Below are positions 2,313-26,828 of a stretch of DNA of 64,000 bases, piece after piece. The DNA lies in NCBI RefSeq assembly GCF_014642855.1, contig NZ_BMJB01000001.1, forward strand, positions 1,178,001-1,242,000. Reading direction: 5' to 3'. The translations under genes and the position numbers were made by a program. The DNA comes from Edaphobacter acidisoli (GTDB lineage Bacteria; Acidobacteriota; Terriglobia; Terriglobales; Acidobacteriaceae). Numbering within the stretch: the stretch's first letter is position 1; each line of letters begins with the position of its first letter. The notes below the pieces were generated by a model. It searched no databases and was not told where the DNA came from. It worked only from the letters and a program-made list of their open reading frames with translations.

Positions 2313-5300
2313 TCAGTCCTTTTTCTTATCCAGCCGCAGATACGCCCGTCGGCGAAGAACACCGCGTGCAACGACCGCCAGCAGAATGCAGCACAGCGCA
2401 ATCAGCGCAGCCATCGCCCACGGATAATTTGCAAAGAAGATATGCGTGCGTACCCAGATCGAAAGCGATCCCACACCATACATCACATTGCCGATCCGGT
2501 AAGAATTGAACTGCCCACCATGCAGCACACTTACCGTCTGTGAGATGTCCGACGATTGCGAGTTCCTCAAGAACGCTGAAATTAACCCACTCGCATTCTC
2601 TCTGTCGCGCATCACGACCAACACCACCGACCGGCCCGAGCGCGCAGGCCACTGTGTCGCCTCGATCAAAGCATCAGGCAAACCGCCCGAAGTCTCCAGC
2701 TCGCCCGACTGCACGCGATCCGAGCTCCGCACCTTCCACCACGCATGTTGAAACTGGCTGAAAAAACCCTGCGTGTCCTGAATATGCAGGCCACTTCCAT
2801 CCACCATCACAGGCAGCGACGGATTCAACCGCGCGATCGCATCCTGGTCGCCAACCGTCCCAATGACGAGATAGTCTTTGCCGCCCGGCGCCATCCCTTC
2901 AGCGTTCGTGACGCCCACATTCAACACCGGATAGCCCGTCTGCGCCCCGAAGTGTCCCATCAACGCCAGGTAAAGCTCCATCTCTTCCGGCCCGGGCACG
3001 TCCGGCATCACCACCGCGGTATCGCTCAAATCAGCCTTGCGTGTAAACGGATATCCCGCATTCGCAAAGATCTCCAGATCAGGCAACACTGCCCAATGCG
3101 GAATCCCGCGCAGGTCGAGATAAGAATCCTTCAGCACAGCGCCCTGCAAATCAGACGCAGCAGCGTCGCGGCACTTCGCGTCTTCCGCCACCCTCCATGC
3201 AAACTTGATCCGCAGCGTATTCGACGAAGGCCGCATGTCCGAGACCGGCACCGGCACCAGCACTTCCGGCCCGGTCGCTACCTTGTCCGAATGAGGTAAA
3301 GGCACAGCGTTCACAAACCCGCCATTCACACTCACCTGCATCGTGCTGCCATCGGCCAGCGGAACACCGTTGTAACGATAACGAAGATGCAAGCCAAGGT
3401 TCTGAATCGTGCCGTAGTAAAGATCAGGCGGCAGACGCAGATAAGCCGTCACCGGCGTGCTCCCGTCGCTTTCAAGATCGCCCGGCTGAGTAAACTCTCC
3501 AATCGGCGTAATCTTCTCCGTGTCCAGCCAGCGCGGAGCGTCATCAGGTCTGCGCGGCGCAGGCATTGCCAGCGACTTGATCGCAACCTGATCGCCCTGC
3601 AACATATCTCGTTGCAGTGAAAGTGCACGCGCAGCCATCAGCAGTTCATCTGCATCTCTACCCGTAATCACCAGCGCCTTAGAGTACAGGTCCGACGGAT
3701 TGTCGCGCATCGCAATCACCGCACTCGCGCCCCCATGAACCTGAAGCGTAGGCGGAAGTGCCGCCGTATTCTCGCTCAGCACAATCACGTTTCCTTGAGG
3801 AATCTTCCCGACACTCACAGGAAATTGAACCGGCCGCGAATCGGCTAACATGCCAAACCATGAAGCCACGACGCCAGCCGCCTCCAGCGCCTTCTCCGAG
3901 GGCTGACTCAAAAACACAATCGGAACGGAAGGATGGTAATCGACCGCCGCATCATAAAACGGAATAGGAAGCAGTCGAAGATCATCATGAAGAGGCTCTA
4001 GCGCACCAGTAAACTCAATACTGGAGCTCGTATCCACATGGCTCCACAGCGTCGAGTTCGCAGTATCTTCGCACTCCGCTTTATAGTGGCCAACAAACTC
4101 GAAGTTTAGATCGTTATCGCGCGCCAGCAACTCCGCAGGTAAGGTAACAGTCGCATCAAGCGCAGGACTGCGCTCAGCACGCGAGGCATCCGCCGCATCG
4201 TTGCCTGAGGGCGCATTCCCTAGTGGCACATTCACAGTCTGCGAAGTTACAGCAGGAGGAGGCGCGACCGTCAGCGTCGTCACCAGCACTCCATTCAAGC
4301 TCACATTCAAATGGCTGATCGTCGGAACCAATCCCGGCGAAAAGTGATAGTGCAACTTCAACACCGCAGTCGTCACATGCTCTGTCAGCGGCAGCGAAAA
4401 CCGCACCGTGCGGTGCGCATCTTCGCCATGCAAAACAATCGTGTTCTGCACTCCGAGATCGGTCAGTGTCGCAGTACGATCAAACGTCCCCTGCAATGCC
4501 TGCGCGGCCGCCGACTCCGGTGCAGCGGCGCTCATTTGTCCACGCAGCGTTCCCGTCGCAGCCAGAGCAAGCAGAACAAGGCCTGCAGCAGCACCCGTCT
4601 TCGAACCTCCAACCATCCCCCTCAGCGTCTGAGCGATGCCACGAGTCGACAGCTTAAAAATATGCCGCAGACTCTTCAAAGGCCGGTCAGCCAGATGCGC
4701 CTCGCCCCAGCCCAGCCACGCATCGGCACGCGAATACAACACCAGCGTCAGTGCTTCCTCTTCCTGCACGCTCAACGTGCCAAACTTCGCGCGAAGAATA
4801 TTGCCATCGACTCCAGCCACCACTGCGGGAAACTCCGCAGTTCCGCTCAACACCGGAAGCCCAACCTTAATGTGCCCGCCGACCTTGGCCTTAAACCCGC
4901 GCTCCATCCGCACCATCACGCCGCCACTCGAAACATTCGCGGTCACGCCATGCACCGGACTTCCACTCGCGAGCTTTACCTCTGCCGGAAGATGCATCGT
5001 CACCCGCACGCTCTGCCGCCTCTGCCGCTCCTCCCACGCTACAGCAATCGCAACGCCCAGAATGACAAGGTTGAAGCACGCCCAAAGCAAATTCATCACA
5101 ATCGTACCGACATGCTGGCCATCGTACATCGAAGCCAGCACACTCAGCGCCCAGTTGTGACCGGAACTCGGAACATGCCAGATGCGCGGAATCGCGCACA
5201 GCACTCCCGCAAAGTTCAACCCGAAGAGCAGAAGAAACGGCTGCGCAATGCGCACATCGAAGAACCGCCGCTCCACCACGCCGCCCTTCGCCGTCACGTT

Positions 5301-23019: not shown

Positions 23020-24270
23020 TCAACCTCGCACAATCCCCCACAGCCACACCAGCGACAACCCAGTCACAACAGCCGCAGTCAGCCACGCAACAATATTGAA
23101 AAAACGCGAGTTCGTATGCTCTCCCATCAATTCATACTTGTTGATGAGCTGAAGCATAAAGACCAGCACAATCGGCAGCAACACTCCATTCAGCACCTGC
23201 GACAGAATGCTGAACTTCACCAACGGAAAGTTCGGAATCAGCACAACAGCAGCGCCGGCAGCAAGCAGCAGACTGTAAAACCAGTAAAAGAACTTCGCCT
23301 CACGAAAGCTCTTATCCAGTCCACTCTCAAACCCCAGTCCTTCGCACACGGTATAAGCCGTAGAGAGCGGCAGAATCGACGCAGCAAAAAGCGACGCATT
23401 GAATAATCCTGCAGCGAAGAGGATGAAGGCGTAGTCGCCAGCCAACGGCTTCATCGCCCCAGCCGCATCTGCTGGATCGACGATGTTACGAATGCCGTGA
23501 ACATACAGGGTAGCTGCGCACGCGATGATGATGAACCACGCAACAATATCCGTGAAGAACGAGCCGACAATGACATCGAGACGCGAAGCCTTGTACTGTC
23601 GCACGCCGATTCCCTTCTCGACGATGGACGATTGCAGATAGAACTGCATCCACGGTGCAATCGTCGTGCCGATTACACCGACGGTCATGTAGATATAAGT
23701 TTTGTCGCTCCAGACTGCACGCTGAGGCAGCTTGACCGTCTCCAGCAGAGACAAATGCCAGTCAGGTCTGCTCAAAACACCAGCAGCAATGTAAGCAATA
23801 TAAAAGCAGCTCGCAACAAGGAATATCTTCTCGACGCTCTTGTAATCGCCTTTGACGACGAGCACCCACACAAGAAACGCGCAGATCGGTACGCTCGCAT
23901 ATTTAGTGATGTGAAAGAGCTGCATCGAACCCGCAATACCGGAGAACTCAGTGATGACATTGCCGAAGTTGACGATGACGAGCAGCACCATCATCACAAA
24001 CGTCAGGCGCAGCCCGAACTCTTCGCGGATCAGGTCACTCAGTCCTTTGCCCGTGACTGCTCCCATACGCGCGCACATCTCCTGCACGACGATCAGTGCA
24101 AGCGTGATAGGGATCATCGTCCACAGCAGCGTATAGCCGAACTGCGCGCCGGCCTGCGAGTAGGTCAAAATGCCGCCAGCATCGTTATCGACATTGGCAG
24201 TGATAAAACCTGGCCCAAGCACAGCCAGAAATAAAATGATGCGAGTCCTCCAGCGGCGCGCTTCGGTCAT
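23020..24270 (-). CDS. NRAMP-family divalent metal transporter with altered metal-site motifs
   Basis: Integral inner-membrane carrier, 416 residues, with about 11 membrane helices. Helix 1 reads GPGFITANVDNDAGG instead of the canonical DPGN motif, with Asp28, Asn29 and Asp30 near the site. Helix 6 reads IGTTIAPWMQFYLQSS; Ala205-Pro-Trp207 stands where canonical NRAMPs have Met-Pro-His. Loss of the sulfur ligand is known from the NRAMP-related Mg2+ transporters (NRMTs), so Mg2+ rather than Mn2+ or Fe2+ is a reasonable substrate; that is inference. The start ATG overlaps the upstream gene by 4 bases (ATGA). The operon also carries a poreless MgtE-type regulator. Confidence 0.86.
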   Translation of the reverse strand: MTEARRWRTRIILFLAVLGPGFITANVDNDAGGILTYSQAGAQFGYTLLWTMIPITLALIVVQEMCARMGAVTGKGLSDLIREEFGLRLTFVMMVLLVIVNFGNVITEFSGIAGSMQLFHITKYASVPICAFLVWVLVVKGDYKSVEKIFLVASCFYIAYIAAGVLSRPDWHLSLLETVKLPQRAVWSDKTYIYMTVGVIGTTIAPWMQFYLQSSIVEKGIGVRQYKASRLDVIVGSFFTDIVAWFIIIACAATLYVHGIRNIVDPADAAGAMKPLAGDYAFILFAAGLFNASLFAASILPLSTAYTVCEGLGFESGLDKSFREAKFFYWFYSLLLAAGAAVVLIPNFPLVKFSILSQVLNGVLLPIVLVFMLQLINKYELMGEHTNSRFFNIVAWLTAAVVTGLSLVWLWGIVRG

Positions 24271-25334
24271 CTGACCTCCGCCGCTGCGTTTGATCTGGAC
24301 CGCGCACGAATAGCCTGTATGCGCTCGATAATCAGCCCCACCTGCCGATCGTTGTGATAGCCGTCACGCTCGGCTCGCAGGCGGCCAGCCGCAGCAATGC
24401 GTTGACGCGCAGCCTCATCCGGCAGATAGCGCCGAATCTTCTGCACCAGTTCGTCGAAGTTAGAGAAGAAGACAGCTTCTTCATCTTCCTTGAAGCGCTG
24501 CAGATGCCCCTCGGAACGTTCCGCCAAAAGGAAGCTTCCGCAGGCTGCAATCTCAAAGCTCTTATGAACGAACTCGTCCTGATTGGCGTGCGTTAGAAAA
24601 CTAAGATTAATCTTTGATCGCCAAATTGCTTCACGATAATTCTCTTGAAAAAGTTCGCCCTCACGATACATCTGCTTGAAGCTCTTCGGCGCAAGTTCCC
24701 TCTGCCATTGTCGTTGACTGCCAGAGATCACGACCTGAAACTCATTAAGCTGTGCAAGCTTGCTGAGGATGGTAGCCCGATCATCGTAAGGCGTCCCAAT
24801 AAACGAGACCTCACGGTCACGGTTTTTATCACTCCAGTCCACAGGCGGTGGATAATGCAGCGTAGGCTCATAGGCCGTCTGAATCTTGATGACATCTCGG
24901 CCACCGCGCGAGGTGTAGTCAAGAATGTTTTTGTCGCGCTGGACGACATGCAAGTCATAGTGCGGGATGCACTTCATATAGAGACGCCATCCCGGATCCT
25001 GGCGCGTGCCAAATGGGTTGTCAATCATATAGCTGACCAGGCTAATACCCATCGTGCGCAGCCGGTCGAGTGTCGCCGAACGCATCGCAAGCAGCTTGTC
25101 CGCCCAGAGCACATCTGGCTTTTCGCGTTCTGCTATGCCAAGCAAGTCTCTATTCATCCGAGCAACAGAAGAACCTGTGTGATAACGCAGAACAATCTGA
25201 CGAGTCACAGGATTAGCAGGAACGTAATCATAAGTGTTGAACGGAATAACCTCATGGCCCAGCCGCTCAAGCGCCCAAAGGCGATAGAGCGAGCTGTCGT
25301 TGGGCGAGAGGCCAGATGCGTACAAAATCTTCAT
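24267..25334 (-). CDS. CgeB-like glycosyltransferase
   Basis: Probable cytoplasmic GT-B glycosyltransferase (355 residues). It begins MKILYASGLSPNDSSLYRLW, continues with LVSYMIDNPFGTRQDPGWR and VSFIGTPYDDRATILSKL, and ends with NLSFLTHANQDEFVHKSFEIAA, CGSFLLAERSEGHLQRFKED and the terminal helix, a pattern shared with the CgeB / DUF3880 family. Acceptor and donor are unknown. It is translationally coupled to the NRAMP-like gene and starts 39 bases after the MgtE-like gene, so it is the odd middle member of a metal-transport operon. Confidence 0.8.
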   Translation of the reverse strand: MKILYASGLSPNDSSLYRLWALERLGHEVIPFNTYDYVPANPVTRQIVLRYHTGSSVARMNRDLLGIAEREKPDVLWADKLLAMRSATLDRLRTMGISLVSYMIDNPFGTRQDPGWRLYMKCIPHYDLHVVQRDKNILDYTSRGGRDVIKIQTAYEPTLHYPPPVDWSDKNRDREVSFIGTPYDDRATILSKLAQLNEFQVVISGSQRQWQRELAPKSFKQMYREGELFQENYREAIWRSKINLSFLTHANQDEFVHKSFEIAACGSFLLAERSEGHLQRFKEDEEAVFFSNFDELVQKIRRYLPDEAARQRIAAAGRLRAERDGYHNDRQVGLIIERIQAIRARSRSNAAAEVR

Positions 25335-25373
25335 GAAGTCGCGTTTTTCTTCCCAATTCTTTCTGATCTACGT

Positions 25374-26654
25374 TTAATGCTCGGCGCGTAGGAGCCCAAT
25401 CACCTGTTCAGCGTGGACGACACCCACCAGTCGCTTGTCATGATCCAGCACGGGGAGTGAGCGCAAATTGTACTTGTCGAATAATTCGGCTACTTTGCGG
25501 CCATTTGCATCGATGTCGCAGGTAACAAGGTGAGCCCCGGGCAGGTCGGCCAATGGTGCAGCAGGTGTGGCGAGCAGAAGCTGTACCAGAGGAATTACCG
25601 AACTGATGCGCTGTTCGTCATCGAGTAGGTACACGTCACTGATCGTCTCGTTGTCGCCCTCGAAATGGCGCAGCGCCTCGACTGCATCGGACAGGATGGC
25701 ATTTTGGGGCAGCGCAATGTAATCGGTCGTCATGCGTCCCGCGGCAGAGTTGCCTGAGAACTCGAGCAGATCTTCGACCTCCTGCCGCTCCTCAGGGTCC
25801 ATCTCTTCGAGAATGGCTTCCGATCGCTCCTCAGGCAGTTCGGAGAGCAAGTCTGCAGCTGCCGCAGGGTCCATTTCCTCGACAATGTCGGCGACTTTCT
25901 CAGAATCGAGCGCCTCGATAAGCGCCTGTTGCATCTTCGGCTTGACCTCTTCGAGCGCCTCAGCGGCAACCTCCTCGTCGAGACTCAAAAAAACAGCGTG
26001 ACGCTCGGCCGGAGCAAGATCTTCCAGAATGTCTGCGATATCCGAGGGGTGCATCTGCGAGAGGCGATCCTGCTCGATCTTCAGCTTCACACGCCGTGCA
26101 GGGTCGCGGCCAATCAGGTCGACAAAGTCCCACGGAATAATGCTAGGAGTCAGTCGTGTAGTAATTCTCGCGACCATTGCACCCGGAAGACCCTTTAGCA
26201 AACGCCGCAAAGCACCACGCAGGCCGATTTCAACCTCTGCGACGCGCAACCGAAGATCACCTCCTGGCTGCTGCGGCGACTCCCACACCAGGTCCACGTC
26301 ATTCACTCGTACGACCTTGTGACCGTGCACATCAATAATCTGCTGATCGAGCAAGTCTCGCTCCAGCAATAGATAGGACTCGTCATCGGGCAGCAGACCG
26401 GGCCGGACGGACTCGCGAAGCTGCATCGCTCCCTGCGCAGTCAGCATCAGCTCAGTTATCAGGACCATTACATCGCGGTCACCGCGGTCATTCTTTGCCC
26501 CACGAAGAATCAATCCGTAGACGTGCGAAGGATCTACAGCAGGCGAGACTACGACCTCTCGGACACGCCCATGCACAGCCCCCCCGGCGTCTGTAATCGG
26601 GGTGCCCATCAAGGTAGCGACGCTGGTCTTTTGTTGACTGAGGTGTTTCGTCAT
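25374..26654 (-). CDS. MgtE-type cytosolic Mg2+ sensor without transmembrane pore (PRC-barrel-like, MgtE_N, CBS pair)
   Basis: Soluble protein of 426 residues. Residues 1-185 contain two PRC-barrel-like strands sets (GTPITDAGGAVHGRVREVVV; IIDVHGHKVVRVNDV). Residues 198-300 match the MgtE N domain: LSQMHPSDIADILEDL, then Asp/Glu-rich helical repeats (LDSEKVADIVEEMDP, LPEERSEAILEEMDP). Residues 305-426 are two CBS motifs (GRMTTDYIALPQNAILSDAV; NLRSLPVLDHDKRLVGVV). The protein ends there: the five-helix MgtE channel is absent. In MgtE these domains bind Mg2+ and close the pore, so here they may gate the NRAMP-like protein of the same operon. Start chosen at ATG 26654; an in-frame start 33 codons earlier is possible. 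Confidence 0.88.
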   Translation of the reverse strand: MTKHLSQQKTSVATLMGTPITDAGGAVHGRVREVVVSPAVDPSHVYGLILRGAKNDRGDRDVMVLITELMLTAQGAMQLRESVRPGLLPDDESYLLLERDLLDQQIIDVHGHKVVRVNDVDLVWESPQQPGGDLRLRVAEVEIGLRGALRRLLKGLPGAMVARITTRLTPSIIPWDFVDLIGRDPARRVKLKIEQDRLSQMHPSDIADILEDLAPAERHAVFLSLDEEVAAEALEEVKPKMQQALIEALDSEKVADIVEEMDPAAAADLLSELPEERSEAILEEMDPEERQEVEDLLEFSGNSAAGRMTTDYIALPQNAILSDAVEALRHFEGDNETISDVYLLDDEQRISSVIPLVQLLLATPAAPLADLPGAHLVTCDIDANGRKVAELFDKYNLRSLPVLDHDKRLVGVVHAEQVIGLLRAEH

Positions 26655-26828
26655 AGGCGGCTCAACAGGGCGCTCTATCCAAACTTTACATGCTTGAGAC
26701 TCCGCCGTGCGATCAGCCACTCTAGAAGGTGCAAGTTGTGTTACCGGTATCAACCTGCGTATATTCCTCGTACCGCATGTTAATTCCGCGGCGAGCCGAT
26801 ATTGCCAGCAGGAGTGAAGGTCGCCAGG

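Follow-up and report, generated by a model that had tools for sequence, protein, structure and literature searches.

Can the detached cytosolic gate of a magnesium channel serve an unrelated metal carrier? This question is raised by a three-gene unit in a 64,000-nucleotide stretch of the Edaphobacter acidisoli genome (contig NZ_BMJB01000001.1; hereafter "the window"), in which a soluble protein resembling the cytosolic half of the MgtE channel is encoded together with a glycosyltransferase and a carrier of the NRAMP fold. The unit occupies window positions 23020-26654 on the minus strand and is transcribed in the order MgtE-like gene, glycosyltransferase gene, carrier gene. Its coordinates and three-product anatomy had been given in an earlier note on this DNA and are borne out by the gene positions and Pfam domains, as follows.

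23020..24270, minus strand: carrier of the NRAMP-related Mg2+ transporter (NRMT) type, 416 amino acids; Pfam Nramp, 314.8 bits
24267..25334, minus strand: CgeB-like glycosyltransferase, 355 amino acids; Pfam Glyco_trans_1_2
25374..26654, minus strand: MgtE-like soluble protein, 426 amino acids; PRC-type N-terminal region, MgtE_N superhelix and CBS pair, with neither plug helix nor channel

The MgtE-like gene starts with an ATG at 26654, and an in-frame TTG is found at 26753. Taken as a whole, the locus is best explained, with rather more confidence than doubt, as an NRMT carrier with an obligate soluble accessory derived from MgtE. The pairing itself is not new. According to the available passages of Shin et al. 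(2014; PMC4072509), most, though not all, of the NrmT genes examined adjoin a gene for a protein like the N-terminal cytoplasmic domain of MgtE, and the same genome context is found in the window. These authors speculated about feedback regulation or a chaperone role for the MgtE-like gene, and left its role open. No later publication resolving this role was found by title or beginning of the abstract, in a search outside of which most subscription journals fell; the passages at hand from two later NRAMP papers (PMC9606685, PMC12873925) do not mention MgtE. New here, as far as these searches reach, are an exception-free co-occurrence of the two proteins, its persistence when the genes are unlinked, and thus a stronger case for an obligate partner than that in print.

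Judged by sequence comparison, tree and signature residues, the window carrier is an NRMT, in agreement with the earlier note. Its best match in the Protein Data Bank (PDB) is EleNRMT (7qia; 356 bits, as against at most 96 for canonical NRAMPs), with 45% identity over 397 aligned positions. Residues D30, G33, E108, T202, A205, W207 and Q358 correspond to D55, G58, E133, T224, A227, W229 and Q379 of EleNRMT, and the NRMT signature DxxG-TxxA/T, described together with the roles of the metal-site residues in the passages of PMC8806188 at our disposal, appears in this alignment as D30, G33, T202 and A205. The motifs NVDNDAGG in helix 1 and TTIAPW in helix 6 read as previously stated; the DPGN motif is indeed absent, yet the binding-site Asp is kept (D30) and not lost. 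With MntH and the canonical NRAMP DraNramp the carrier shares the Pfam family domain and this Asp, but it has no Met-Pro-His, a Gly in place of Asn, and W207 where canonical NRAMPs have a proton-pathway His in helix 6b (the first of two positions only). Scored by NCBIfam, it reaches 143.8 bits with the MntH model, under the cut-off of 430, and passes the general model "Nramp family divalent metal transporter" (65.3 versus a cut-off of 50).

In a maximum-likelihood tree of 137 rows, EleNRMT falls within a clade of classes 1 and 2, which includes the window's class (Shimodaira-Hasegawa-like approximate likelihood ratio test, SH-aLRT, 97), and two canonical NRAMPs fall outside; the tree is a quick one without bootstrap, has only these two canonical rows and carries a long-branch warning. 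It was sampled with every fifth of 80 named loci, fragments below 330 amino acids were omitted, and six listed loci were removed by hand (two of which had already been thinned out). The designation of the carrier as a "pump" in the earlier note fits poorly with the in vitro results on EleNRMT, an NRMT that works without proton coupling according to the accessible text of PMC8806188. The PF01566 proteins of class 4 were considered as NRMT kin and rejected, as they form a clade of their own (SH-aLRT 100). These proteins (L223, L225-L229, L231, L233, L240, L241, L243 and others) read ADDDPSG in helix 1 and TISPY in helix 6, and in none of the 22 rows does the locus read contain an MgtE-like gene, many of these loci having only about 1 kb of flank. 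Likewise, no MgtE-like gene lies beside a DDDPSG-type carrier on a Rhizobium plasmid.

Whether the MgtE-like protein belongs to the carrier is addressed by the distribution of the two proteins among genomes. The first sample comprised 297 Acidobacteriota genomes with a completeness of 90 or more, among which 91 carrier genomes were recognized, 78 of them because they scored at least 368.6 bits and 13 through the motif VADNDAGG, class 4 being excluded by its DDDPSG/TISPY motifs. NRAMP matches were listed down to 95.7 bits, and the weaker ones in genomes without an MgtE-like protein were checked for motifs, save G176:C206 and matches below about 105 bits; two of them, G259:C10 and G259:C29, had none of the motifs searched. 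The profile of the MgtE-like protein separated full-length matches (362-567 bits) from the next best (at most 222 bits), which span about the C-terminal half of the model, as expected for canonical MgtE. By these definitions, the MgtE-like protein is present in all 91 carrier genomes and in none of the 206 others, so that no genome of the 297 is discordant. The two genes lie within 10 kb of each other in 67 of the carrier genomes; in the other 24 a long distance or a contig boundary separates them, with one case (G241) probably due to a contig break. A congener of the window's species (G267) has neither protein (one weak NRAMP match, motif not checked) and possesses CorA.

The same pattern recurs in a second phylum sample, consisting of 190 genomes with a completeness of 85 or more around genome G298 (titled Omnitrophota): all 44 carrier genomes, and none of the 146 others, encode the MgtE-like protein, in each case on the same contig as the carrier. 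A gap in the carrier scores between 496 and 127 bits made a motif rule superfluous here. The MgtE-like gene of one of these genomes (G320:C62:110969-112270) yielded two overlapping matches and probably contains a frameshift or a sequencing error. Both samples together amount to 487 genomes, with the partner in 135/135 carrier genomes and 0/352 others. The pairing described in the earlier note is thereby seen to be conserved far beyond chance. Among the 80 named loci, 55 hold an MgtE-like gene within the DNA read and several others end at contig edges; the rest of these genomes was not searched, so the gene may lie elsewhere. Pairs are also found on plasmids of Alicyclobacillus, Citrobacter, Pseudarthrobacter, Cellulomonas and Mycolicibacterium, and thus in Bacillota, Actinomycetota and Pseudomonadota. 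Against this spread and the joint count, the idea that carrier and MgtE-like protein are neighbours by chance, for which no supporting point was found, has a negligible probability. Four apparent natural fusions of the two proteins (G129, G160, G253, G076) were discarded, as the long stop-to-stop frames proved to overlap two separate genes. The plasmid pairs of Citrobacter freundii pPSV (L270, 1-5680) and Cellulomonas sp. (L272, 1-5851) adjoin an ArsR/SmtB regulator and a heavy-metal P-type ATPase; hence, the pair can travel with metal-resistance genes.

The genomes that harbour the pair mostly lack the MgtE channel. In Acidobacteriota the channel domain PF01769 is present in 14/91 carrier genomes versus 155/206 others, and a comparison restricted to the 11 families in which both states occur gives a Mantel-Haenszel odds ratio of 0.16 (p 0.009); this family-stratified test is the only one of the genome statistics that takes phylogeny into account. 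In the second sample the channel scores above cut-off in 2/44 carrier genomes versus 92/146 others, one below-cut-off match in a carrier genome (G455) being left uncounted. The carrier and its MgtE-like partner thus largely replace the MgtE channel in both samples. Given the strict joint presence and absence of the two proteins, mostly where the MgtE channel is missing, the MgtE-like protein probably belongs to the carrier. On the strength of the co-occurrence, its persistence in unlinked genes and the substitution of the channel, what was a remark on a gene neighbourhood becomes a strong prediction, namely that the MgtE-like protein is an obligate subunit. Fourteen Acidobacteriota genomes have neither NRMT nor, above cut-off, MgtE channel or CorA (MgtA was not searched there): G037, G068, G116, G166, G176, G189, G204, G227, G233, G235, G239, G269, G287 and G293.

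The window's own genome fits this picture. A whole-genome profile search detected no PF01769, CorA or MgtA above cut-off. Of the four classes of importer looked for (CorA, MgtE channel, MgtA and NRMT), the pair is the sole representative detected, which makes this genome a clean place for a test. Two genes gave weak matches to P-type ATPases, which by eye we take to be a copper-type (CPC motif) and a KdpB-type enzyme, and one CNNM/CorC protein, usually an exporter, scored above cut-off. The genome also encodes a canonical MntH (DPGN, MPH; L001 1408-2727, minus strand), transcribed divergently from a gene for a FeoA-containing DtxR-type regulator (2771-3484, plus strand). With this MntH probably providing for Mn2+ import, the NRMT is more likely to serve Mg2+. 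The earlier suggestion that the substrate may be Mg2+ accordingly holds in so far as Mg2+ appears to be the likeliest substrate in this genome. In two further Acidobacteriota a canonical MntH (DPGN, MPH) that ends in a universal stress protein domain is encoded near the NRMT pair (L056 5601-7544 and L058 4165-6039, both minus strand).

The partner protein comprises both cytosolic domains of MgtE, namely MgtE_N (about 100 bits in Pfam) and CBS. It ends after the second CBS domain, and the transmembrane channel domain is not found; with the NCBIfam mgtE model it scores 144 bits, below the cut-off of 232.75. The AlphaFold model (mean predicted local distance difference test, pLDDT, 86; predicted template modelling score, pTM, 0.48) displays in turn a beta-rich N-terminus, a helical MgtE_N domain and the CBS pair, and the top Foldseek matches are the cytosolic domains of MgtE, which the protein has in common with the Thermus thermophilus channel (PDB 2yvy/2zy9). 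Relative to that channel it has no plug helix or pore, has lost most of the mapped Mg2+ and ATP residues, and carries an extra N-terminal PRC-type region. The description of a PRC/MgtE_N/CBS protein without channel helices is thus borne out, with the qualification that Pfam does not call PRC in the window protein itself at E<=0.05, but does call it in 20 of 22 aligned MgtE-like proteins. The best 50 Foldseek rows, in which MgtE, CBS and further proteins appear without aligned ranges, include no PRC-barrel entry, and the N-terminal assignment consequently rests on the Pfam calls in relatives.

From these observations a mechanism can be outlined. The NRMT would take up Mg2+, and probably could take up Mn2+, without proton coupling. 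The accessory, obligate and soluble, presumably descends from the cytosolic half of an MgtE channel and would most likely bind to the cytosolic face of the carrier and tune its activity to the internal level of divalent ions, similar to the way in which these domains control the MgtE pore; its metal sites in the window's lineage are fewer and partly changed, and in the window's genome the pair would stand in for the undetected MgtE, CorA and MgtA importers. Membership in the NRMT family by sequence, the strict co-occurrence, the replacement of the MgtE channel and the absence of the other importers searched are observations, whereas the substrate in this organism, transport without proton coupling, contact between the two proteins and the direction of control are inferred. 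The fuller evolutionary proposal is put forward tentatively, and we are slightly more inclined to doubt than to accept it in all its parts: a detached MgtE gate became the obligate regulatory subunit of an unrelated carrier of the LeuT fold, many bacteria use this two-gene system in place of MgtE to import Mg2+, and the window's lineage dropped the plug-facing Mg2+ and ATP sites while keeping other acidic positions of the N-domain. If true, one regulatory module has been re-used on two unrelated transporters.

Several results weigh against a Mg2+ importer controlled by an MgtE-type gate, and they bear on substrate and on sensing. CorA is distributed independently of the carrier in Acidobacteriota (60/91 versus 117/206, with four below-cut-off matches dropped). 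M-box Mg2+ riboswitches are absent from the window at gathering score and from the 17 chromosomal loci examined; in favour of Mg2+, however, one precedes the pair in three of the five plasmid loci (Alicyclobacillus, Pseudarthrobacter and Mycolicibacterium, the last with a short open reading frame between M-box and pair). Furthermore, the accessible parts of Shin et al. (PMC4072509) report that the Acidobacterium capsulatum NrmT, produced in Bacillus subtilis, fully rescued Mn uptake, but rescued Mg uptake only partially and only in low-millimolar Mg, and that its MgtE-like partner gave no further Mg2+ rescue.

The results with the A. capsulatum pair lend some weight to the view that the carrier is mainly a Mn2+ importer, the MgtE-like protein responding to Mn2+ or having another role. 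The tested pair shares its phylum, and probably its family, with the window, EleNRMT also carries Mn2+ with a Km of about 120 uM (PMC8806188, as far as the text was accessible), and the lack of an M-box in the window points the same way. The systems of Shin et al. (A. capsulatum ACP2976/2977 and Clostridium acetobutylicum Ca_c0685) have the same class of carrier and kind of partner as the window, and in A. capsulatum the MgtE-like gene also lies upstream of the carrier gene; the window differs by the inserted CgeB gene, by the missing M-box and by a host without detected CorA, MgtE channel or MgtA. Moreover, helix 1 carries NDPNG in two loci titled Acidobacterium (L148, L150), as against NDAGG in the window, and the tested protein may therefore not represent the latter (the sequence of A. 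capsulatum itself was not seen). Together with the canonical MntH beside a DtxR-type regulator and the replacement of MgtE channels in both phylum samples, this makes a primarily Mn2+-importing role improbable, at perhaps one chance among several, and Mg2+ uptake by the NRMT is retained as the preferred reading.

With respect to sensing, the sites of T. thermophilus MgtE (Mg2+-site roles and ATP contacts according to the available portions of PMC5882242 and PMC5529423, respectively) were mapped onto 116 stand-alone proteins and 15 full-length MgtE proteins of the same phylum sample. For the residue counts identical and short sequences were dropped, near-copies remain and the window protein was left out; one protein from a class 3 genome with no carrier in view (L237) was counted as class 1. 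In the window protein the plug helix is absent, D91, D247 and D250 of MgtE are replaced by A264, Q417 and G420, with loss of the Mg4 pair (A264/Q417), and the ATP contacts Y170, R187, D188 and F227 by D340, V357, Q358 and L397. Among the full-length proteins Y170 (12/15) and R187 (10/15) are usual, and F227 is Leu in 11/15. D226 corresponds to N396, an exchange also seen in 10/15 full-length proteins. The equivalents of E59 and D95 are retained as E232 and D268. Based on these residues, the window protein is not a complete MgtE sensor, and the "free-standing Mg2+ sensor" of the earlier note is weakened, although these two acidic positions remain.

Such losses favour the alternative that the MgtE-like protein serves folding, stability, membrane placement or signalling of the NRMT instead of metal-dependent gating. 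The PRC-type domain, which lies outside MgtE as solved, fits with this notion, as do the missing effect of co-expression on Mg rescue and the activity of the A. capsulatum and C. acetobutylicum carriers in B. subtilis without the partner (available passages of PMC4072509). On the other hand, the D95 equivalent is kept in 97/100 proteins of the window's class versus 5/15 full-length MgtE proteins, and the E59 equivalent is acidic in 84/100. The Mg4 pair, moreover, is mostly kept or lost together (D91 and D247 both kept in 56/100, both lost in 40/100, mixed in 4/100), a pattern that is inflated by near-copies and suggests a working metal site in many relatives, which disappeared as a whole from the lineage of the window. 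Metal-dependent behaviour of the window protein thus remains plausible, and a purely non-gating role is regarded as unlikely, though as a serious contender; an accessory that tunes the NRMT to divalent ions is preferred.

The CgeB-like gene had been treated in the earlier note as a member of the joint unit, and it does not belong to the part that is conserved. It is tightly embedded, with a 4-base overlap with the carrier gene and a gap of 39 bases behind the MgtE-like stop codon, an arrangement that would suit a functional third member linking glycosylation to metal uptake. Yet, among the loci read, CgeB next to the pair is confined to the window's family and its close relatives: it is found in 26/40 loci that have lost the Mg4 pair and 0/56 that have kept it, and in 11 of the 80 named loci. 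The five plasmid pairs, whose gene tables are incomplete, have no annotated glycosyltransferase next to them. Owing to this narrow spread CgeB was rejected as a system component; a functional link is very unlikely, and the gene is probably a lineage-specific insertion or passenger outside the system. In four loci of Acidobacteriaceae (L096 6905-9495, L106 2799-5382, L114 6230-8813 and L135 3182-5910) inserted genes for an oxidoreductase and an aldo/keto reductase separate CgeB from the NRMT; the oxidoreductase is of the GMC type according to Pfam in L096 and was assigned by eye in the other loci.

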